Below are positions 3,236 to 62,902 of a DNA stretch of 64,000 nt, piece after piece. Numbering within the stretch: the stretch's first letter is position 1; every line of letters starts with the position of its first letter. A program made the translations under genes and the position numbers. Origin of the DNA: a virus; IMG/VR virus record IMGVR_UViG_3300045970_000794, positions 126,001 through 190,000 of that record. One strand, written 5' to 3'. The notes below the pieces were generated by a model. It made no database searches, had not been told where the DNA came from, and saw nothing but the letters and a program-made list of their open reading frames with translations.

Positions 3236-6200
3236 TTAATTTACTAGCACATTATTTATTATTGATGTACAACCATTTCCATCTGTTACTGTAAATGTGT
3301 ATTCAAATACTGATGTTGGTACATGTACCAAGAAATTAGGTACGGATACGTTAAAACTAACATTATCACTACCACCAGTGCTAATATTTGATGCATTCAA
3401 TACTAATGCCCCAGCACCGCCAACAATATCACCAGTTACATGTGCAATACCAAATGAAATTGACCCTACATTTATATTTGAAAGAATCAATTCATTAGGT
3501 CTAGTAAGATTTACTGTTTGGGTTGCTACAGTACAATTATTACCATCTTTTAATCCAATTGTATGTGAACCATACGCTAATCCAGTTTTATGGTATACTG
3601 TTGAATTTTGTGGCACTGAATTGACTCCATCAACAATAAATGTATATGGTGTTGTTCCACCAGCAGCAATCATATTAATAGCACCATCAGTACTAGAATA
3701 ACAGCTAACATTAAATCCATTATAATAACTTAAAGTTTTTGATAAAGTTAATTGTGATGGTTGAGTCATAACTGTTGTTGTTGACCATGTATCTAAATGT
3801 GAATCAGTAATGACTATATTATAAGCTCCAGCTGATAAATTTGTTAAATTAAATGTATTATAGACAGTACCAGTAGGTTGATGAGTCACAGCTATTGTAT
3901 ATGGTGGTGTACCACCATTGGCCATAATAGTCATTGTACCATTACTAGAATTATAGCATGCTAACATACTTTGTTGTGATATAGAACCTACTAATTGTGT
4001 TGGTTCCGAAATATTTAAATTACTTACTTGTGGTAATGAACCACCAGAATCAGTAACAGTTAAAACGTAATCACCAGTTGGTAAATTTGTAAATATATTT
4101 ACACAAGCTTGAAATCCACAATATAGTATATGTGTAATAGGGTTTGTTGATGGGCCAACTAATGTCATTGTATATGTTGGCGTACCACCGACAATATAAT
4201 TTACATTGATTGTACCAGTACCACCAAAAGTATAAGCATTAGTAACACTAGTTCCAAAAGATATTCCAACAGGTTCAATAATGATAACAGTAATTGTAGC
4301 TATTTTATTACTATTATCAACAACTTTAATAATATATGTTCCAGCCGCTAAGTTAGGAATCAATAAAGTGTTTGTAAATTGGACTCCATTAAATCCATAT
4401 ATTACTTGTCCATTTAATGTTACATAAGCAAGATATGGTGTAATGCCACCCTCAGCATCAATTGTGATAGTACCATCAATACCATTAGTAGTTGTAACAT
4501 TGGTTGCACTATAATTAATCATAAAATCATTTTCAACTGGAAAATCACAATCAGTAAAATACTTGTTATTTAACTTATCTAAACTAGTTTTACCAATATG
4601 CAATCCAAAATAGAAATAATATGAATTATTATATGGTAATGAAGAACCACTAGCACTAGGTATAAAAGTACTTACCATACCATTAAAGCCTTGTGCTTGA
4701 TAGCTTTCAGCATCACCAAGTCCAAATTGTAAATGATTTGGTGAAAAATGTCTATAACTATTATGCCATTCATCTTCTGGTGCTGTAGGTAATAAACCAG
4801 TTACATTCATATGTCTTAATGACCTTCTAACAAATTCATTTTCAATTTCCTTATCATCAATAATTCCATCACCTGGCCATGCATCATTTGCAAAATAATC
4901 ATATGGTGCTAAATTATCTTCATCAAGTCCACGACCAATCTCACAAATTAGTCTAATATTTTTACAATGGCGTTTATATAATTTAACACCTTTACAGTTT
5001 AAATAAAATAATACTGGCTCAATACATGACACTGTTTCATCTTTTTGGAAAACAAGATTCCCACTAGTACCACCAATTGGAGGAAATTTATATGTTGTTG
5101 GTGTTAAAAATTGATGAATAACGGGTGTTCCATAAATATTCCATTCTGTTGCACTACCTAGTAATGTAATATCAGTAGCAAATAATTTCATATAACCATC
5201 ATGTGATGAACTAGCATAATATAAATTACCATCTTGTCGTTTAATTAATCCTTCTTTGAAAGTATATTTTGTTGATACCACATTATCACATGAATTTGGC
5301 AATGTTGATAATAAACTAGTTAATGTACTTGGGTCTGGGTCCTCGCATTGAGTAGAATTCATTGCACATGAATCAAATTGAATTGTTTTGTTGCATGAAT
5401 TATCAGCAACACCATCATTATTACCATCAGCTGCGTTTGGGAAGCCTACACCACCACTATACCAATCTTCACAATCATATGCACAATATTTTATTTTACC
5501 ATTATCTTTTTGTTTAAATTTAAATAAAAACGCATATAATGCACCATTCACCCAATCATTATAGAAATCAAACCTATAAATGTTCATTGAATCAGCTAAT
5601 TCAGCCTGTTTACATGCCATATATAATTCAGTAGCATTTTCTATAACATATAAACCACTATTACAGTCATTAATTACATAAGCACCATTACATTCACTAC
5701 CATCATTACTAGTACCACAATATTCATAACCTGGTATATATTGAAGATTATCAAGACCACATTCTAGAATTATTGGCTTAACATAATTTATCATACACGT
5801 ACAACAATCATCACACGTACCTGTACTACAAATACACCAACCAAAAGTACTTAAAGTTGTACAAACCGTTTTCAATATACCATTAATTGAATGTATTACC
5901 CAATTTAACGCATAAATTATCGCACCATTTATTAATGCAATTATCTCAATAACTAATCCCATTATTAAACACATAAGTACGAACATTGGGTCCGTTTTAG
6001 TATCAGACCTATTATATGGGAATTCAGTAAATGTTTCACAATCATCAACATTTTTAATGCCGATGAAATTTCTAGATTCAACTGGTTTAACAAGTGAAAA
6101 CCTTCTTTGTATTCTAGGTATGAAGTTTCTAACTGTATAAATATTATTCCATATTAAATCAGTGAAATTATTATTAATATCTGGTGTTTCTGGACTAAAA

Positions 6201-38019: not shown

Positions 38020-39651
38020 ATGGAAAAATTCAAATTAAATGATTTTATTCTAAAAGCTAAAACCATTCATGGTGATAAATATGATTACTCTATCACAAAA
38101 TATCGTAATATAACATCAAAAGTTAAAATAATATGTCCGATACATGGTGAGGTTGAATTAGTTGCTAGAGAACATCTTTATAATAAAATTGGATGTCCAA
38201 AATGTTATAGTAAATTCAATGATATTGAATTAGTAATAAATGAAGCTAATTTGATTCATGGTGATAAATATGATTATTCATTAGTTAATTATATTAATAA
38301 AAAAACTAAAGTTAAAATAATTTGCCCAATACATGGTGAATTTGAACAATTATTACATTCACATGTGAACAATAAACAAGGTTGTCCAAAATGTAGTGGT
38401 AATAAACGATTAACAACTAATGATTTTATTGAAAAAGCTAAAACTATTCATGGTACTAAATACGATTATTCATTAGTTGAATATGTTAATAATTTAACTA
38501 AAGTTAAAATTATATGTCCAATCCATGGTGAATTCGAACAATCACCATCAAATCATTTAATTGGTAGGGGTTGCAAAATATGTGGTAATATTAAATTATC
38601 AGAATTTAGAACTAAAACTAGTGATGAATTTATATCTGAGGCTAATAAAATTCATAATAATAAGTACATATATAATTTAACTGAATATATTGATTGTAAA
38701 AATAAAGTTAAAATAATATGCCCAGTACATGGCGAATTTGAACAAACACCAGATGCCCATATAAATGGTAAACAAGGTTGTCCGAAATGTTCAACAACCA
38801 ATAGCCAACCTGAAGAAGAAATTAATGATTTTATATTTTCATTGGGTATTGAAACTGTTAGACATGATAAAAAAATCCTTAATGGTAAAGAGTTAGATAT
38901 CCTAATACCATCACATAATATAGCTATCGAATTTGATGGACTATATTGGCATTCTGAATTATATGTATCATCTGATTATCATTTATCAAAAACAAATTTA
39001 TGTATAAAAAATGGTATTCAATTAATTCATATATTCGAGGATGAATGGATGTATAGAAAAGAAATAGTTAAAAGTAGATTAAAAAATATATTGGGGTTAA
39101 CCGAAAATAAGGTGTTTGCTAGGAAATGTGAGGTTAAAGAGATTCCACCCAAAATTGCAAAATCATTTCTTAACAATAATCATATTCAAGGATATACTAA
39201 TTCTAATATTAAATTAGGATTATACCACAATAATAATTTAGTTTCTGTTATGTTATTTAATAAACCAAGAAAAGGTATTGGAAATACGGTTGATGGTTAT
39301 GAATTAAGTAGGTTTGCTAGTAAATTAGATATTAATGTGCTTGGTGGTGCATCTAAATTATTTAAATACTTCATCAGTAATTATTCAGCTAATAATGTAA
39401 TAAGTTATGCTGATAGAAGATGGTCTAATGGTAATTTATATGATAAATTAGGTTTTACTTTAAAATCTATTAATAGACCAACGTATTGGTATATATTTAA
39501 TAATAAACGTAAACATAGATTATTATTTAGAAAACAATTATTAATTAAAGATGGTTATGATAAGAACTTAACTGAGCATAGTATAATGCTCAATCGTAAA
39601 ATTTTTAGAATATATGATTGTGGTACTAAAACATATATTCTAAAATTGTAA
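38020..39651 (+). CDS. Hef-like homing endonuclease: four zinc-ribbon repeats plus Vsr-like nuclease
   Basis: Encodes 543 residues. Four tandem repeats of about 65 residues (1-265) share F..KA..IHGDKYDYS, KVKIICPIHGEFEQ, H and GCPKC. Each is a small zinc-binding unit expected to read DNA. A PD-(D/E)xK/Vsr-like nuclease follows (LDILIPSHNIAIEFDGLYWHSE, then IQLIHIFEDEW). The C-terminal 190 residues (FLNNNHIQGY, ELSRFASKL, SYADRRWSNGNLYDKLGF) resemble the terminal domain of Hef-type phage nucleases. Encoded opposite to the flanking tail genes under its own host-type promoter. Confidence 0.85.
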   Translation: MEKFKLNDFILKAKTIHGDKYDYSITKYRNITSKVKIICPIHGEVELVAREHLYNKIGCPKCYSKFNDIELVINEANLIHGDKYDYSLVNYINKKTKVKIICPIHGEFEQLLHSHVNNKQGCPKCSGNKRLTTNDFIEKAKTIHGTKYDYSLVEYVNNLTKVKIICPIHGEFEQSPSNHLIGRGCKICGNIKLSEFRTKTSDEFISEANKIHNNKYIYNLTEYIDCKNKVKIICPVHGEFEQTPDAHINGKQGCPKCSTTNSQPEEEINDFIFSLGIETVRHDKKILNGKELDILIPSHNIAIEFDGLYWHSELYVSSDYHLSKTNLCIKNGIQLIHIFEDEWMYRKEIVKSRLKNILGLTENKVFARKCEVKEIPPKIAKSFLNNNHIQGYTNSNIKLGLYHNNNLVSVMLFNKPRKGIGNTVDGYELSRFASKLDINVLGGASKLFKYFISNYSANNVISYADRRWSNGNLYDKLGFTLKSINRPTYWYIFNNKRKHRLLFRKQLLIKDGYDKNLTEHSIMLNRKIFRIYDCGTKTYILKL

Positions 39652-39694: not shown

Positions 39695-39730
39695 TCATCT
39701 TTTATCCCATTTTTCAATTAAATTTTCCAT
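39695..39730 (-). pseudogene. Displaced 5' stub of the 131-residue gene (MENLIEKWDKR*)
   Basis: ATG followed by ten sense codons and TGA. The first ten residues are identical to the start of the gene at 39753-40148, and the DNA is identical over 40 bases including the A-rich leader. It lies between that gene's stop and the 3' end of the rightward HEG. It is either the end of a deleted tandem copy or a fossil of a HEG insertion. Confidence 0.6.
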
Positions 39731-39739
39731 AATTTTTTT
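39700..39739. repeat. 40-bp perfect direct repeat, copy 1
   Basis: Identical to 40118-40157 over 40 bases. It contains a start codon and nine further codons plus the leader. The two copies bracket the body of the 131-residue gene. Confidence 0.85.
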
Positions 39740-39752
39740 CTAATACACTAAT

Positions 39753-40148
39753 TTAGCTTAATCTTGTTATATGTTTTAGATATAAAGTACATAAAAAAAT
39801 TAACGACTCAGCTTCAATATCAATCTTTTTATAATCAATATGATTACTTAAATTACTTAAATTTAAACAATCATTTAAATAGTTAATTAATTTTAACATA
39901 TTTTCTTCATCAAACATATAACTATCTGGTAATTTCAAAGCAACATCACCCCAAGTAATAATATTACCAACTAAAAGTCTATATATTGCTGGAAATACAA
40001 CTTCAGTTGTTAAATTGTTCGAACAATGTTTATCTAATAATATTTTAGCACACAATTCATAAGCACTAGCAACTTTTAGTTTTAAAACCTCATCTTTAAT
40101 TGTATTTAATACAAAAATTTTATCCCATTTTTCAATTAAATTTTCCAT
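39753..40148 (-). CDS. Hypothetical helical protein
   Basis: 131 residues starting MENLIEKWDKIFVLN. A longer reading from 40235 is possible, but its extra residues (MIHPKKLRKKLLF...) lie in low-complexity leader that overlaps the upstream gene. The repeated A-rich leader before MENLIEKWDK supports the internal start. The protein is alpha-helical with Leu/Asn-rich segments (LINYLNDCLNLSNLSN) and no recognised motif. It sits between the HAD-like gene and the HEG. Confidence 0.65.
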   Translation of the reverse strand: MENLIEKWDKIFVLNTIKDEVLKLKVASAYELCAKILLDKHCSNNLTTEVVFPAIYRLLVGNIITWGDVALKLPDSYMFDEENMLKLINYLNDCLNLSNLSNHIDYKKIDIEAESLIFLCTLYLKHITRLS

Positions 40149-54435: not shown

Positions 54436-55056
54436 TCACATTATTTTTTTACCTTTAACCATATTATCTTTAGCCCATAATGGTTGTAAATTACTTAATG
54501 CATTTACAACACTAGGTGGTGTATCGGCTGAAAAGCTACAAACTGGTATTTTATGGTCAATATGCCATTCACCATAATTATTCCATGACATACCCTCAAC
54601 AAATAAAGATTCTAAATGCTCTTTTAATTGGTGTGGTGAATATCCTAGTAAATCAATGGTATGACCACTTTTTTTCTGACCTAACCGCCTCAATGATAAA
54701 TATAATAAACCTCTCCATTTATCACCTATTGTTTGTTTTCGACCTTTTTTTCGTTCTTTATCATATTGTTTAAGCTTAGCATCATTTTTAATCCTATATT
54801 CCTTTTGCCATTTAGAAATTATTTCAGCATTTTCAATTGTATATGTTTTTTTCTTAATCGATATTATTTCTTTATTAGATTCACGATATATTTTAACCAC
54901 TGAACAAATTTTGTCTTTATTAATAATATAACGCTGCCCATCAATTTCTTTTTTACATGTTTTACAATATGTTGAATATCCATCTTTAGATGCTGAACAT
55001 TTATTAAAATCTTCAATTGGTTTATCAATACTACACTTATAACATATTTTAACCAT
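54436..55056 (-). CDS. HNH homing endonuclease with zinc-ribbon N-terminus
   Basis: About 206 residues from MVKICYKCSIDKPIEDF; a start four codons earlier (55068-55071) would overlap the preceding pseudogene. The N-terminus has CYKCS and CKTCKK pairs. The C-terminal HNH core is WNNYGEWHIDHKIPVCSF followed by VVNALSNLQPLWAKDN. It lies directly after a decayed GIY-YIG element and one base before the tail-completion gene, so two HEGs occupy the same intergenic slot. Confidence 0.82.
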   Translation of the reverse strand: MVKICYKCSIDKPIEDFNKCSASKDGYSTYCKTCKKEIDGQRYIINKDKICSVVKIYRESNKEIISIKKKTYTIENAEIISKWQKEYRIKNDAKLKQYDKERKKGRKQTIGDKWRGLLYLSLRRLGQKKSGHTIDLLGYSPHQLKEHLESLFVEGMSWNNYGEWHIDHKIPVCSFSADTPPSVVNALSNLQPLWAKDNMVKGKKIM

Positions 55057-55057
55057 T

Positions 55058-55836
55058 TTATAATCCCTCAAATTCTATTTTATATTTCCATAAATATCCA
55101 CCAGCTGTATTACGTTTTCCAGATAATACCGAATTTATATGTTTATGTATTTTTTTAATTTCACAAACCGATTTCCATTCTTTAATTATTTCACCATCTA
55201 ATGATAATTGAAGAACTGATTTTGGCCTTTGTTTTTCGTGTTTATTTTTAACTAAATAAACATCACGCTTTAATAATTCATCAGATTTATAACGCCAAAT
55301 AAACCCACCAGCACTACTTCTTTTTTTATTAACGACTAAATTTATATTTTTAATATTAAAATTAATTTTAACATCATTAACCGATTCCCATTCTTTAATA
55401 AAATTACCATTCAAATCATATTGGATTACTGAGTCAATTATTTTTGATTTTTTAAAATAGTCAATATTTTTTGGTGTTTTACCTTTTTTTGTTTTTGACA
55501 TTTTATTTTTAGTTTAATCACTTAATTTAACACCTAATGACCCACCATCACCACCATTTGTTAAATTTTTTAATTCAAAACCCCATGTTTTGAATTGATT
55601 TATCCAGTATATCTCCCAAAATCCCCATTCCAAATTTGGTACAATATCAATTATTTCAATTATTGGTGTTTCGTTTCGATTTATTAACGATTTAATCCAA
55701 GCATCTCGTTTAGTTAGTTTTTTTTTGTTTTAGCGTCAAAAATATGACGATATAATCTCTGTTTTAAATTATTTGTTTTACCAATATATTTAACACCAAA
55801 ACTATCACTTAAACTATATATAAATACTGTATCCAT
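55058..55836 (-). pseudogene. Decayed GIY-YIG homing endonuclease (frameshift plus nonsense)
   Basis: The reading starts MDTVFIYSLSDSFGVKYIGKTNNL, a clear GIY-YIG motif. It is broken at a run of nine A (55718-55726 on the plus strand as T9), with a stop at 55714-55716. Reading on with one extra A gives DAWIKSLINRNETP... up to NLTNGGDGGSLG VKLSD. There TAA (55514-55516) interrupts what would be a NUMOD3 segment, SD(E)TKNKMSKTKKGKTP. The remaining part (from 55501, 147 residues) carries two NUMOD1-like units (QYDLNGNFIKEWESVNDV; QLSLDGEIIKEWKSV). Two lesions argue for real decay. The A9 run could also allow slippage. Confidence 0.8.
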
Positions 55837-55839
55837 ATT

Positions 55840-56364
55840 TTATTCAGCTGAAAATTCTATTTTATCAACAGGAGCGCAGATTACAGTTCTAAATGCACCT
55901 TCAAACCCCATTATTGTATGTTTATTATCAAAATGTTTTATACCATCATTAACAACACTGAAAAATCTAAGTTCAGTTTCGGTTATTGGGTATCCAATGT
56001 AATCACCATAAGATAAATCAACTTCTAATTCAGTTAATTGTTCTTCATAGATTCCAAATGTTAATTGTCCATCTTGAATGTATCTTAAACTACCAGAATC
56101 TTTACCATATACAGCATTTTCTGGTTCCGCTATGATTGGTACTACTTTTAATTCAACAGGTGTTTTAAATCTGATATCTTTTTTACCAGCTTCACCATAT
56201 AATGAATCAGTTTCACTCAAACCCCTATCAACTTGATAAAGTACCACAACAAAATTACCATCACCTTCAATTGCTTCCCTACCTAAAGATACCTCAAGTT
56301 CAAAATCCTCCCTAGAATACCATTTATTTATCCTAGTTATAGGCATTTTTCTACTATTTCCCAT
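55840..56364 (-). CDS. Neck/head-closure-type virion protein (gp14-like?) with replaced 5' end
   Basis: Encodes 174 residues. The start is M-GNSRKMP then ITRINKWYSREDFELE; the remainder includes RFKTPVELKVVP, GQLTFGIYEEQLTELEVDL and DYIGYPITETELRFFSVV, which suits the small beta proteins of the phage neck. Its first 24 codons also exist, with different codons, at the start of the upstream GIY-YIG gene. The gene overlaps that HEG by 11 bases and lacks its own ATATTTAT element, so it depends on read-through from the HEG transcript. The gp14-like label is tentative. Confidence 0.7.
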   Translation of the reverse strand: MGNSRKMPITRINKWYSREDFELEVSLGREAIEGDGNFVVVLYQVDRGLSETDSLYGEAGKKDIRFKTPVELKVVPIIAEPENAVYGKDSGSLRYIQDGQLTFGIYEEQLTELEVDLSYGDYIGYPITETELRFFSVVNDGIKHFDNKHTIMGFEGAFRTVICAPVDKIEFSAE

Positions 56365-57130
56365 GATTTTTAACGTATTTATGTATTATTTTATTTGAGC
56401 AACCATATATCTCCCCAATTTGAACTAAATTTAATCCATTTTGTTTATATTCAGTTATTTGATTAACATCTAAATTATATTTATTAGACTTAGGTTTATA
56501 TATCTCAAAACGCCTAAGATTATTATTTATAACATCCTTTGAACAATTAAAATGTTTTGCTATCTCAGTTATTTTAAAGTTTTTATTTAAAAATAAATCT
56601 CTTAATTCATCCCCATTTATTTTATATTTAAAATTACCATTATTTTCATATTTATGAATTCCAAGTAATTTAACTTTTTCACTTCGTTGTTTTAACACTT
56701 TTTTCGATAATGATTTACCGTGCATCGGGTTGTTTTTACCAATATTAATTTTCTTCATATATTCTTTGGTTTCTTCGCTATGTTTTAAACCTAAACACCC
56801 TTCACCACCTTTGGTTATATTATAACCAATAGATTTTTCAGTTGAATTATATTTTTGAATCCAATATTTTTCTTTATTATCTAATATTTCTTTAGTATTA
56901 CAATGTTCAAGAATTTCCTTAATAAAATTATTTTTACCGTATTTTTTAATAGCTAATTTTATTATTTTACCAGAACCAATATAATTAGGATTATTTTTAG
57001 AATCTTGACCAATATAAATTTTACCATTGATTAGGTTAGTTGTTTTATAAACAACCATATCAAGTTCAAAATCTTCACGAGAATAGAACTTATTAATTCG
57101 AGTAATTGGTATCTTTCTATTTGCTGCCAT
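56354..57130 (-). CDS. GIY-YIG homing endonuclease fused to a displaced neck-gene 5' end
   Basis: Encodes 258 residues. Residues 1-24 (M-AANRKIP then ITRINKFYSREDFELD) duplicate the N-terminus of the downstream neck-type protein. The nuclease begins at its own Met 25 (MVVYKTTNLINGKIYIG, with Y/GIY..YIG-type residues), followed by YNITKGGEGCLGLKHSEETK and GKNNPMHGKSLSKK (NUMOD3 type). The C-terminal half has two helix-turn-helix-like segments (FKITEIAKHFNCSKDVINNNL; LNLVQIGEIYGCSNKIIHKYV). An ATATTTAT leader precedes it, so the HEG has captured the target gene's expression signals. Confidence 0.85.
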   Translation of the reverse strand: MAANRKIPITRINKFYSREDFELDMVVYKTTNLINGKIYIGQDSKNNPNYIGSGKIIKLAIKKYGKNNFIKEILEHCNTKEILDNKEKYWIQKYNSTEKSIGYNITKGGEGCLGLKHSEETKEYMKKINIGKNNPMHGKSLSKKVLKQRSEKVKLLGIHKYENNGNFKYKINGDELRDLFLNKNFKITEIAKHFNCSKDVINNNLRRFEIYKPKSNKYNLDVNQITEYKQNGLNLVQIGEIYGCSNKIIHKYVKNHGK

Positions 57131-59608: not shown

Positions 59609-59677
59609 TGGATATGTTTTTATATAAATATTGTGCTGATATTGAAAGTTATTGATATTTATATGTAAAAGATTATT

Positions 59678-59737
59678 ATGGCAGCAACACAAGCAGAAAA
59701 AGATAGATTATTCAGTATATCAAATCCAATTTTTTAA
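59678..59737 (+). pseudogene. Displaced 5' stub of the neck-protein gene (MAATQAEKDRLF...)
   Basis: The leader ATATTTATA (59655-59663), ATG and codons for MAATQAEKDRLF match the promoter element and start of the intact gene at 60725 (MAASEIEKTRLF), with seven to eight of twelve residues identical but most codons different. Homology stops after codon 12, exactly where the 3' end of the leftward HEG begins. The frame then runs seven codons into antisense HEG sequence and stops at TAA. Confidence 0.75.
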
Positions 59738-60482
59738 CAATATTTTCATTGTATTTTATTTCGACTAGTGTAATATTATTTTTATTACAATATTTTCGTT
59801 TAATTTCATCACTCTCAGTTGTTAACTTAAATGCATTCTCACCAAAAAGTTTGCATGGTCTATAATGTTGTTCGCCTTGATATTCAATACATGTATTATA
59901 TTCTGGAATATAAAAGTCAAATGGTAATAGATTAATTCGCTTGCAATCATCAAATTTATGTTGTGGAATGAAATTAATATTGTGTTTATTCAAATAATCT
60001 CTAATTGTTTTTTCACCATTAGATTCAGAACACATTGGGCATCCACGACCTTTTTTATGGTGATGTGGTATCTGTGTAAAATCACCATGTATTGGACATG
60101 TGATGATTATTTTAGTCGTAGAATTAACATATATAACTTTTGAATAGTTATAAAAACCATTATGTATTTTTGATAATTCATTAATATATGATTCGGTCGT
60201 TATTCTTGGTATTTTTAATTTGTATGCCTTTTCTTTAATGTCTTTAGCATCTCTTCTTAATTTTTCCCCACAATATTTACTACCAAAATTACTATAGTTT
60301 TCTTTTAAAAATAAAATTTCATCAGTACCCCAAACATTTAAAATATTTAATCCTAATTTATTTGCTTTAACACGTATTGCATTTTTATTTCTATCTAAAA
60401 ACGATGTACATCCAGCTACACCGTTAATCGGGTAGTTTTTGATTAATATATCAATTTCTTCATTAGTCCAATATGTGTTCAT
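59712..60482 (-). CDS. Homing endonuclease: SANT/HTH-like repeats, one zinc ribbon, PD-(D/E)xK nuclease
   Basis: Encodes 256 residues. Residues 1-90 contain two Myb/SANT-like helical units (WTNEEIDILIKNYPING; WGTDEILFLKENYSNFG). One zinc-ribbon unit follows (YSKVIYVNSTTKIIITCPIHGDFTQ to GCPMC), as in the 543-residue HEG. The nuclease is LLPFDFYIPEYNTCIEYQGEQHYRPC, with D, E and Q-x-H residues, nearly the same as in the HEG at 61874-62791. Its stop codon lies within the displaced codon 12 of the neck gene. The gene runs opposite to its target. Confidence 0.83.
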   Translation of the reverse strand: MNTYWTNEEIDILIKNYPINGVAGCTSFLDRNKNAIRVKANKLGLNILNVWGTDEILFLKENYSNFGSKYCGEKLRRDAKDIKEKAYKLKIPRITTESYINELSKIHNGFYNYSKVIYVNSTTKIIITCPIHGDFTQIPHHHKKGRGCPMCSESNGEKTIRDYLNKHNINFIPQHKFDDCKRINLLPFDFYIPEYNTCIEYQGEQHYRPCKLFGENAFKLTTESDEIKRKYCNKNNITLVEIKYNENIVKKLDLIY

Positions 60483-60642
60483 GTTTTATACCTATATTAA
60501 TTTTTTCCCTTATTATTTCAGATAATTTAACTATTCTATTTTCTTCATTACTACGCTTAATCGTTAAATTAACCAATTGATTATAGATATTTTCATCTAT
60601 TTTAATTGATATGTGTTTCAAATTCATTTTATTTCGTCCCAT
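60463..60642 (-). CDS. Ribbon-helix-helix (Arc/CopG-type) small DNA-binding protein
   Basis: Encodes 59 residues, MGRNKMNLKHISIKIDEN then IYNQLVNLTIKRSNEENRIV and KLSEIIREKINIG. KHISIKID is a typical RHH beta strand, and the two following helices with a turn match the Arc/MetJ/CopG fold. The stop overlaps the start of the HEG by 20 bases, so the pair is translationally coupled. A TATATTTAT element lies 22 bases upstream. It may repress the HEG promoter and the divergent neck gene promoter 60 bases away (inference). Confidence 0.7.
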   Translation of the reverse strand: MGRNKMNLKHISIKIDENIYNQLVNLTIKRSNEENRIVKLSEIIREKINIGIKHEHILD

Positions 60643-60663
60643 AATATATTGTATTACTTTATA

Positions 60664-60672
60664 ATAAATATA
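60664..60672 (-). promoter_or_regulatory. Putative promoter element TATATTTAT for RHH-HEG operon
   Basis: Coding-strand CGTATATTTATTATAAAG. It is divergent from the ATATTTAT element (60702-60709) that precedes the rightward neck gene, so the two promoters share about 100 bases. Confidence 0.5.
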
Positions 60673-60724
60673 CGAATATTTAAAAAATTAGTTGCATTCA
60701 GATATTTATTTAAAAAATAAAATT

Positions 60725-61894
60725 ATGGCTGCAAGTGAAATTGAGAAAACACGCTTATTTAGACAAGTTAGACATCAACTAGGTGCTCCAATGCGTAAAA
60801 TTGAGTTACCAGACGAAAATTTAGTAACTTTATTGGAATTATCTATTGAAGATTACGCTGAATATGTACATAATTGGCTAATAGATAGTCAATGGTCATC
60901 ATTTATAGGTCAACCTATTGATACTTTAGATATGGCATTCGCATTAACAACTAGAACATTAGATTTTGAGACACAATTTACTTATGCTTACTCAAAACAA
61001 GTTGGTTTACAAGCTAGAGGTCCATGGGAACTCAAAAAAGATTATGTTGAGATAGAAGCTGGTAGACAAGTTTATGAAATTCCAGCTGGTCGTGAGGTAA
61101 ATCAAGTATTATGGTTAACCCCATCGGTAACTAATCGTGCATTATTTGCTAATTTTGGTGGTTTTGATAACGGTATTGGTGGTGGTTACGCTCAAACTGG
61201 TTTTGGAGTCGGTGGTGGTGGTACTGGTGCTGGTTCTGGTGGTATGGGTGGAAGAGGTGGATATTATATCGCACCAGCATTTGATGTTTTATTGACTGCG
61301 GCCGATATGAATCTTAAACATAGATTATTAAGAAGTGATTTAGTATATAAAATAACCGCTGGGCCTAATGGTACTAAGTTATTACATTTAATTAGCACAC
61401 CAGGTTCTAAAATGACATTCGGTATGGGTGGTCAAGGTGGAAGTATGGCTGGTTCTAGTTCTTTAGGTATTGCTGGATGTCACGTATGGTATCATTATTA
61501 CGATACTAATGGTGATGTTGATGCATGTAGAGCGGCTAATTTAGATATTATTACGATGCCGAATGAAGTACCATTAACTAGATTAGATTTTGATGTGTTA
61601 AATGAACCTACAAAAATATTAATTCGTCAAATATTAACAGCTAGAGCTAAAATAACCTTAGGAAGAACTAGGGGTAAGTTTGGTGGTGTTGTTGGTCCAC
61701 CAGAAGCTGAAAGAACTATGGATTGGGAAAGTTTATTAACTGAAGGTAATGAAGAATATGGTAAAATATTTGAAAGATTAGCTGCTAGGTTAGAGCAAAT
61801 GACTAATACTAAAATGTTAGAGCGAAAAGCTAATGAAGCTGAAAACTTAAATAAAACATTAGCTTATAGACCCTTAGGATTTTACGTTATTTAG
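60725..61894 (+). CDS. Neck protein, gp13-like (probable), intact copy between two HEGs
   Basis: 389 residues from MAASEIEKTRLFRQVRHQLG; the start is placed at 60725 because the displaced stub begins at the same codon. APMRKIELPDENLVTLLELSIEDYAEYV near the N-terminus fits the helical gp13-type neck start. A Gly-rich segment (residues 165-190) and a C-terminal helix (FERLAARLEQMTNT, ...LNKTLAYRPLGFYVI) follow. Both ends are duplicated outside the flanking HEGs in codon-diverged form. The last 21 bases overlap the downstream HEG. Head-completion or neck role is inferred. Confidence 0.72.
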   Translation: MAASEIEKTRLFRQVRHQLGAPMRKIELPDENLVTLLELSIEDYAEYVHNWLIDSQWSSFIGQPIDTLDMAFALTTRTLDFETQFTYAYSKQVGLQARGPWELKKDYVEIEAGRQVYEIPAGREVNQVLWLTPSVTNRALFANFGGFDNGIGGGYAQTGFGVGGGGTGAGSGGMGGRGGYYIAPAFDVLLTAADMNLKHRLLRSDLVYKITAGPNGTKLLHLISTPGSKMTFGMGGQGGSMAGSSSLGIAGCHVWYHYYDTNGDVDACRAANLDIITMPNEVPLTRLDFDVLNEPTKILIRQILTARAKITLGRTRGKFGGVVGPPEAERTMDWESLLTEGNEEYGKIFERLAARLEQMTNTKMLERKANEAENLNKTLAYRPLGFYVI

Positions 61895-62791
61895 TAATTT
61901 TTTTTCTAATTTTTTAATTATATCTTCATTATACCTAATAATAATTAAAGGGATGCTATTAATATAACAGTATCTCTTTTTTATTTTATCTCTTTTTCTA
62001 ATTGATTTTAGATTATCTAATCCACCCCAATATTTAATTGACCTATAATGTTGTTCACCATTATATTCGATACAAACATTATAATCTGGTAAATAAAAAT
62101 CAAATGGTAACATTATTTTATCTTTACAACCATTAAATCTATGCTGTGGTAAATATTTAATATTATTTATTAATAAAAATTCTCTAATAATTTTTTCACC
62201 CTTTGATGATTTACACTTAGAACACCCTTGACCTTTTAAATGATTACTAGGGGTTTGCTCAAATTCACCATGAATTGAACATATAATTTTAACTTTATTA
62301 TGTGCATTAATATAAATTACATTAGAATAATCATATTTATTTGTGTGAATTTCTAAAGATTTAGTTATGAATTTATCATTTTTAAACCTTTTACTATCAC
62401 CAACTGCTTTCCAACCACATTTTTGACAACCATAACTCTCCAAATGCCATTTAGCTTTTTGTTTAAATTCACCATGTATTGGGCATATTATATCTAAAAC
62501 ACTATGTTTATTTATATAATTAATGTTAGTATAATCGTATTTATTACCATGTTTTTGTTTTGCTTTAATTATAAATTCTTCATTAGTTAATTTTGAGTTT
62601 ATTTTACATTTTGGACATCCACTATTACTTCTTAGATGATTTCTTGGTTCCATTAAAAACTCACCATGTATTGGACATATTATGATTATGTTTTCGTATT
62701 GTGTTATATAATTAGCTTTTGAATAATCATATTTATCACCATGTTTTTGTACTGCTCGTTTAATAAAAATTTCTGTAGTTATCATATTCAT
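61874..62791 (-). CDS. Homing endonuclease: three zinc-ribbon repeats plus PD-(D/E)xK nuclease
   Basis: Encodes 305 residues. Three units of about 65 residues with F(I/F)KRAVQKHGDKYDYS or similar, IICPIHGEF and GCPKC cover 1-200. The nuclease (GEKIIREFL, MLPFDFYLPDYNVCIEYNGEQHYRS, RDKIKKRYCYINSIPLIIIRYNEDI) closely matches that of the HEG at 59712-60482. Its last seven codons are antisense to the neck gene's final codons. A TATATTTAT element lies directly upstream of the ATG. Confidence 0.85.
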   Translation of the reverse strand: MNMITTEIFIKRAVQKHGDKYDYSKANYITQYENIIIICPIHGEFLMEPRNHLRSNSGCPKCKINSKLTNEEFIIKAKQKHGNKYDYTNINYINKHSVLDIICPIHGEFKQKAKWHLESYGCQKCGWKAVGDSKRFKNDKFITKSLEIHTNKYDYSNVIYINAHNKVKIICSIHGEFEQTPSNHLKGQGCSKCKSSKGEKIIREFLLINNIKYLPQHRFNGCKDKIMLPFDFYLPDYNVCIEYNGEQHYRSIKYWGGLDNLKSIRKRDKIKKRYCYINSIPLIIIRYNEDIIKKLEKKLLNNVKS

Positions 62792-62797
62792 TTTATT

Positions 62798-62806
62798 ATA
62801 AATATA
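62798..62806 (-). promoter_or_regulatory. Putative promoter element TATATTTAT for HEG
   Basis: Coding-strand AATATATTTATAATAAA followed at once by ATG, leaving a very short leader. Confidence 0.45.
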
Positions 62807-62834
62807 TTGAAATTAATAAAAGAAATTTTAAACT

Positions 62835-62870
62835 ATGAAATATCGTCCTATGGGATTCTATGTAATATAA
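62835..62870 (+). pseudogene. Displaced 3' stub of the neck-protein gene (MKYRPMGFYVI*)
   Basis: Codons for KYRPMGFYVI and TAA match the end of the intact neck gene (AYRPLGFYVI), eight of ten residues identical, with most synonymous positions changed. It is followed by a strong terminator that suits the original gene end. Upstream homology is lost at the Met codon, where HEG leader sequence starts. Confidence 0.78.
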
Positions 62871-62872
62871 AA

Positions 62873-62897
62873 AAAGCGGGCTAATACCCGCTTTATT
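62873..62897. terminator. Bidirectional rho-independent terminator
   Basis: Stem AAAGCGGG (62873-62880) with CCCGCTTT (62887-62894), a six-base loop, A-rich before and T-rich after. It serves the rightward neck gene stub and the convergent polymerase-like gene. Confidence 0.88.
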
Positions 62898-62902
62898 TTT
62901 TA

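Follow-up and report, generated by a model that had tools for sequence, protein, structure and literature searches.

The gene X locus

The window analysed here is a stretch of 64,000 bases, corresponding to bases 126001-190000 of a 362,102-base virus record (IMGVR_UViG_3300045970_000794), a giant phage referred to below as the source genome (~362 kb). It contains a gene, here called X, that encodes a head-tail adaptor/connector-like protein and lies between two antisense homing endonuclease genes (HEGs), with short separate copies of its own two ends beyond them. The order of 5' stub, HEG1 (-), intact X (+), HEG2 (-), 3' stub and terminator agrees with a preliminary description of this DNA. 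The features are as follows (aa, amino acids; nt, nucleotides; ORF, open reading frame):

59655..59662, +: ATATTTAT box resembling a late promoter, belonging to the original gene X and preceding the 5' stub; X homologues have the same box upstream
59678..59715, +: old 5' stub of gene X, ATGGCAGCAACACAAGCAGAAAAAGATAGATTATTCAG (ATG plus 12 codons, MAATQAEKDRLF), followed by the junction with the HEG1 3' end
59712..60482, -: HEG1, 256 aa, EDxHD-like/phrog_559 nuclease with two SANT-like modules N-terminally and one DUF723-like zinc ribbon
60463..60642, -: 59-aa ORF overlapping the HEG1 start, ribbon-helix-helix-like by eye; absent from the preliminary description
60702..60709, +: second ATATTTAT box, which arrived with the replacement 5' end
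60725..61894, +: intact gene X, encoding 389 aa; similar to head-tail adaptors/connectors (phrog_211)
61874..62791, -: HEG2, 305 aa, three DUF723-type ribbons and a nuclease, with its own ATATTTAT box at 62805 (-)
62832..62870, +: 3' stub, left from the original gene X, TMKYRPMGFYVI*
62873..62902, +: native terminator-like hairpin (agcgggctaatacccgct and a T run), retained beyond the 3' stub; at the same position in homologues

The intact X protein starts MAASEIEKTRLFRQ and ends LAYRPLGFYVI*. Together with 27 homologues it matches phrog_211 only, 'head-tail adaptor Ad2', and its product is probably a virion connector protein judging by this family; the AlphaFold model of its fold is poor (pLDDT 47). 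Named phage records contain no match to gene X or to the surrounding 25 kb. The stubs were located with a position-specific scoring matrix (PSSM) built from 80 X homologues and run in all six frames over the whole 64 kb. The N-terminal end scored 24.8 bits at intact X and 21.8 at the 5' stub, against 9.4 at the next-best site; the corresponding C-terminal scores were 26.7 at intact X, 32.8 at the 3' stub and 8.4 at the next-best site. Both stubs thus stand far above any other site. The 5' stub begins 23 nt past the start of the ATATTTAT box at 59655. A group I/II intron or an intein is excluded, as the ORFs of X and of gene Y (described below) are continuous, each having its own start and stop, and the stubs lie outside them.

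HEG-family matches are to phrog_559/9084 (E 1e-53 to 6e-71), to DUF723, and to GIY-YIG with NUMOD3. The genes combine HEG-family nucleases with DNA-reading modules outside any intron or intein, and are therefore free-standing. The name EDxHD for the nuclease family of HEG1 and HEG2 is provisional; its D/E/QH residues are invariant across the four members compared, and among solved structures no PDB chain convincingly matches the HEG1/HEG2 profile. The two nuclease domains had been described as near-identical, which overstates an identity of 44% over 195 aa. The difference in their DNA-reading modules, two SANT-like modules and one zinc ribbon in HEG1 versus three zinc ribbons in HEG2, was borne out, the SANT-like reading being by sequence inspection. 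HEG2 overlaps the last 21 nt of X, antisense and within the new X 3' end, and the HEG1 operon has a ATATTTAT box at 60671 (-). A ribbon-helix-helix-like small ORF also directly precedes an EDxHD-like HEG at L220:2629-2989 (+; L numbers denote individual loci). These small ORFs could possibly encode a repressor or a DNA-binding partner of the nuclease.

This arrangement very probably represents a homing cassette: a unit of a free-standing HEG and a diverged version of the gene end next to it, which enters genes close to one of their ends.

Native and foreign gene ends

The preliminary description had named a shared lineage of stubs and intact gene as its refutation. Comparison with relatives speaks for different lineages instead: in L064 and in three glutaredoxin trios above all, the stubs fall within the native lineage and the new ends fall outside it. 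Glutaredoxin is encoded by the gene before X, and an antisense HEG follows it in L049, L054 and L060. Compared with HEG-less relatives, these genes have bodies at 93% and tails at 67% identity (L049 vs. L040), 91% and 62% (L054 vs. L043), and 88% and 60% (L060 vs. L033). HEG-less pairs with bodies at 85-97% (n=11) have tails at 84-98%. The three new tails carry a common seven-residue extension (LSxSxTSxK type) on bodies from three lineages, and the foreign tract is only the last ~20 codons. The last 7-8 native codons (LTKKFLG*, LTKKFIG*, ITKKFLG*) are kept immediately before X, the L060 stub retaining the native ending LTKKFLG. As the body is native, the tail is diverged, the new tails are alike and the native ending persists in the stub, these trios provide the strongest test, and their sequences indicate that the foreign end travelled with the HEG.

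At X itself, a relative of HEG2 occupies this site in L055 and L064 too, with an identical 21-nt antisense overlap with the X 3' end and with a 3' stub and the native terminator beyond it. In all three regions compared, upstream flank, gene body and downstream flank, L064 is nearest to L031/L033/L060/L061, a clade whose X tails are 84-92% identical even with bodies at 80%. The L064 stub is 88-91% identical to the ends of its own clade and the intact end 63-76%; the stub has 91% identity to the gene end of another phage versus 67% to the intact copy beside it. The L055 stub ends in AKEATDLNT, as do its nearest relatives, and has 91-92% identity to L049/L032, to which the intact tail is 75-76% identical; L055 thereby identifies the native copy.

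Stub and intact end differ mainly synonymously in 14 pairs, the proportion of synonymous differences (pS) exceeding that of non-synonymous differences (pN) in every pair; in L227, pS is 0.90 and pN 0.09 over 51 codons. Codons were pooled over 12 pairs, excluding the two youngest-looking, L203 and L085. Of 205 codons with the same residue, 108 match, where 106.8 would be expected if both copies drew their codons independently from the codon usage of the locus. This synonymous saturation rules out a recent duplication at insertion, and the sequences point to stubs that were once functional coding sequence in another lineage. Deliberate recoding beyond drift was also considered and is unsupported by these counts.

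Recurrence of end swaps

The related GIY-YIG case, which the preliminary description had set beside X, was confirmed in the same window at gene Y:

57059..57130, -: remnant of the old Y 5' end (MAANRKIPITRINKFYSREDFELD), the 5' stub, running in frame into the GIY-YIG HEG
56354..57058, -: GIY-YIG HEG, between the Y stub and intact Y
55840..56364, -: intact gene Y, encoding 174 aa; its new 5' end overlaps the HEG end and has no promoter box

A promoter box lies directly before the Y start in 69/80 Y loci, none of which has a HEG there, and intact Y lacks the box in all six loci with an upstream GIY-YIG gene. In most gene Y swaps the box is found 19-20 nt before the stub. In L127 only the C-terminal part of a GIY-YIG HEG is left, joined to a Y stub and ahead of intact Y, an arrangement that reads as a decay intermediate in which the element has been lost and the new end left in place. 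Gene Y adjoins a HEG-rich patch, with a degenerate GIY-YIG fragment containing a stop at window positions 55713-55823 (-) and HNH and other HEG-like ORFs at 54436-55501.

Across the source genome, end swaps occur at 8/27 HEGs:

Gene X 5', gene X 3' and gene Y 5': in the window
dNMP-kinase-like gene: GIY-YIG
PTH2: GIY-YIG, start of the stub lost
Metallophosphoesterase: EDxHD-like, junction the same as in L085
phrog_12204 gene, 3': HNH, same strand
Major capsid protein, 3': two HEGs between, 22/22 residues kept

A wider screen covered 209 distinct HEG loci obtained by homologue sampling, with hits read manually, so its frequencies are rough. Swaps were seen at ~17/64 GIY-YIG HEGs (six at thyA, eight at gene Y, and one each at IF3, a HAD-like gene and the window's own) and at 7/72 EDxHD-like HEGs (GNAT, NAPRTase-like, PTH2, flap exonuclease, metallophosphoesterase, X and one unknown). 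Hits such as L089 and L107, in AT-rich, non-coding or unclear sequence, were left out of the counts. As a control, 549 ORFs intended as non-HEG were scored with a cut of 60; a mispaired-flank control was inflated by shared homologous genes, and the ORF control was used instead. Twelve of the 549 reached at least 60. Two of these proved to be HNH swaps at the 3' end of a SNF2 helicase (L128, L230), and the others were HEG paralogues flanking a gene, fibre repeats, tandem paralogues and AT-rich repeats. On manual reading, none of the 549 ORFs was a non-HEG gene enclosed by a gene-end/stub pair. The recurrence across unrelated nuclease families that had been proposed as a check was therefore found for GIY-YIG and EDxHD-like HEGs, with isolated HNH cases. 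The description of the converted genes as essential holds only as far as gene identity goes (major capsid protein, connector-like X, thyA, PTH2, IF3).

The stubs comprise the terminal 8-56 codons and always represent the end adjoining the HEG; the 3' copy in L220 is longer (>54 codons). In most cases the HEG ORF overlaps the new gene end, by 3-21 nt, and in most same-strand cases the HEG stop and the new gene start share 3-19 nt.

Proposed mechanism

It is proposed that, in a mixed infection, the nuclease would cut the HEG-less allele of the other phage at a conserved site in the coding sequence, close to the start or stop. With the HEG-bearing genome as template, repair would then copy the HEG and its attached foreign end in frame with the resident body, an outcome seen in the loci above by a route that is presumed. 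The gene would remain intact after entry of the cassette, and the resident end would be stranded beyond the HEG as an untranslated or short-ORF stub, where it is observed with its native promoter (5') or terminator (3'). The new end, which has diverged synonymously, probably no longer matches the nuclease target and may thus be immune. The first insertion was probably joined by homology on the gene-body side and non-homologously on the far side, and later homing could be two-sided. Nuclease activity, cut sites and the immunity of the new end are all features that we infer.

Three layouts are observed. In a same-strand 5' swap the new gene start overlaps the HEG stop, and the promoter of the stub is predicted to drive stub, HEG and gene. 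In an antisense 5' swap the cassette brings its own promoter box, as for HEG1 with the box at 60702. In an antisense 3' swap the HEG runs with its last codons into the new gene end, as for HEG2. Gene X in the window has undergone one antisense 5' swap and one antisense 3' swap.

The evidence leans towards a broader view, in which these are widespread selfish elements of phages acting as natural home-and-rescue drives, with a nuclease gene and an immune replacement end as the mobile unit. They would have evolved separately with at least EDxHD-like and GIY-YIG nucleases (probably also HNH), in three transcription-aware layouts, could convert a gene from both sides in succession, and in a single phage genome would include as many as one in three HEGs. 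Home-and-rescue drives use a recoded gene end.

Alternative explanations

Ordinary phage mosaicism would place the HEG at a recombination boundary with long co-conversion from a donor, leaving the stubs incidental and the gene end without a functional part in the element. In its favour, HEGs are known to lie at the borders of exchanged DNA (PMC10448857), and flanking sequence is known to be co-converted (PMC2988022). Yet the foreign tract in the glutaredoxin trios is confined to the end of a gene whose body is 88-93% native, the HEG ORFs physically overlap the new end in most cases, and the control gave no gene-end/stub pair around a non-HEG gene. We consider mosaicism unlikely. If the target site had been duplicated at insertion, or slippage had occurred there, and one copy had then drifted, this would explain why the duplicated sequence lies directly beside the insertion. 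Such an origin is very improbable, being contradicted by synonymous sites that are saturated with the protein sequence retained, and by the L064 stub, which resembles the end of another phage rather than its neighbouring intact copy.

Tandem duplication of the gene, with decay of one paralogue and later insertion of a HEG between the copies, can draw on the existence of paralogues: an internally deleted, diverged X paralogue lies directly upstream of intact X at L027:5983-6399 and also in L030. Decaying paralogues would hardly be reduced, as the stubs are, to the terminal codons nearest the HEG within their native promoter or terminator context, and there is very little chance that this is the origin. 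All source sequences are metagenomic contigs, which leaves room for an assembly chimera of two related phages; with the same architecture in many independent contigs and samples, and the gene Y arrangement repeated at 100% on a separate contig (L090/L111), this is barely credible.

Several observations nonetheless weigh against the homing cassette. HNH HEGs gave no clear swap in the screen (0/73), 12 loci from a phage-record collection had no clear swaps, and five T4 HEGs examined had no flanking end duplicates. At the window X, a direct comparison of native and foreign ends is precluded by a closest relative at only 69% aa identity. In L055 the new end is not unusually diverged: HEG-less pairs whose bodies are equally distant have tails in the same range as the intact X tail, which also favours mosaicism, and after this control tail divergence was given up as a proof of foreignness for L055. 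Finally, nuclease activity, cut site and homing are predictions from sequence. The homing cassette is nevertheless preferred.

Relation to known systems

The closest precedent, correctly identified in the preliminary description, is fungal and mitochondrial. Endonuclease ORFs termed mORFs form hybrid atp6, atp9, cox2 and nad3 genes in Glomus, and earlier atp6 in Allomyces; the native remnant is 91-98% identical to a relative and the inserted end 64-81%, with mostly synonymous differences (PMC3630166). The phage cases share this anatomy: an endonuclease ORF sits in a gene end, the native body runs into a foreign end, and what is left of the native end lies past the ORF. It is seen in the window, L055, L064, L049, L054 and L060. 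As in mORFs, comparison with the end of a relative gives a higher identity for the remnant than for the inserted end (91 vs. 63% in L064, 92 vs. 75% in L055). However, mORFs encode LAGLIDADG or GIY-YIG nucleases in organelles and the cited cases are C-terminal (PMC3630166), whereas the phage cases involve EDxHD-like, GIY-YIG and HNH nucleases and affect 5' as well as 3' ends, including the two ends of a single gene.

In phages, intronless homing is known from the T4 HEGs (SegA-G, MobA-E), which are likewise free-standing between genes, overlap their neighbours and encode GIY-YIG or HNH nucleases, but are described as intergenic or gene-splitting (PMC2988022). Gene-splitting HEGs (mobE in Aeh1 nrdA; mobA in T4 gene 60) also lie in the coding sequence of an important gene and yield two complementing pieces (PMC2988022), whereas end-swapped genes stay one intact ORF. 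At L324:1762-4013 and L308:1668-3952, thyA is found in two ORFs around a GIY-YIG HEG, with ~30 residues alike at the junction, which looks like the known gene-splitting kind. Synthetic home-and-rescue (HomeR) drives share the logic of cutting an essential gene, inserting the drive and keeping gene function, and differ in being engineered with Cas9 in Drosophila (PMC7968924); the phage elements are natural and their synonymous divergence is no greater than independent drift would produce, with no extra recoding.

Replacement ends are absent from phage reviews, which deal with intergenic homing, co-conversion, split genes and HEG islands (PMC2988022, PMC10448857). In line with the earlier impression, no phage description of HEG-borne replacement ends was found in open-access full-text literature, subscription papers lying outside the search. 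What is known is thus the fungal mORF; what is new is free-standing HEGs acting like mORFs in phages, at both gene ends and with several nuclease families.

Additional observations

At L055:5478-5705, a 75-aa 3' copy of a SNF2 helicase end directly follows the helicase gene with no HEG between, possibly the scar of a lost element. SNF2 helicase ORFs at L152:459-3311 and L189:449-3328 have apparent inteins at two different positions. The dNMP-kinase-like gene after a GIY-YIG swap is frameshifted beside a 7-nt repeat (gatttgt) at L274:18450-18680 (-), through either error or decay. Next to the PTH2 swap, a reverse transcriptase is flanked by diverged VR/TR-like repeats (L287:828-1793, L286:18332-18847; G000 ~350.3-351.8 kb), which from its sequence looks like a diversity-generating retroelement.

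In the window, the start of gene 39753-40148 is present as a 34-nt near-identical direct repeat (39702-39735 and 40115-40148, -), one copy sitting just past the end of the gene beside the HEG 38020-39651. In Erwinia phage Hallingskeid, 60-nt repeats with the same translation surround an endonuclease gene (L452:2419-2478 and 3476-3535), a different, duplication-like arrangement.

Significance

These elements suggest how HEGs with neither intron nor intein can target the most conserved coding sequence without killing the host gene, and provide a natural counterpart of engineered home-and-rescue drives. They can be searched for cheaply, as a HEG with an intact gene on one side and a diverged scrap of that gene's near end on the other, and this signature can serve to find native target sites, donor lineages and the decay of elements. 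The exchange of gene ends between phage lineages is a hazard for phylogenies and for the annotation of start codons. The elements also make immunity of the homing site directly testable.

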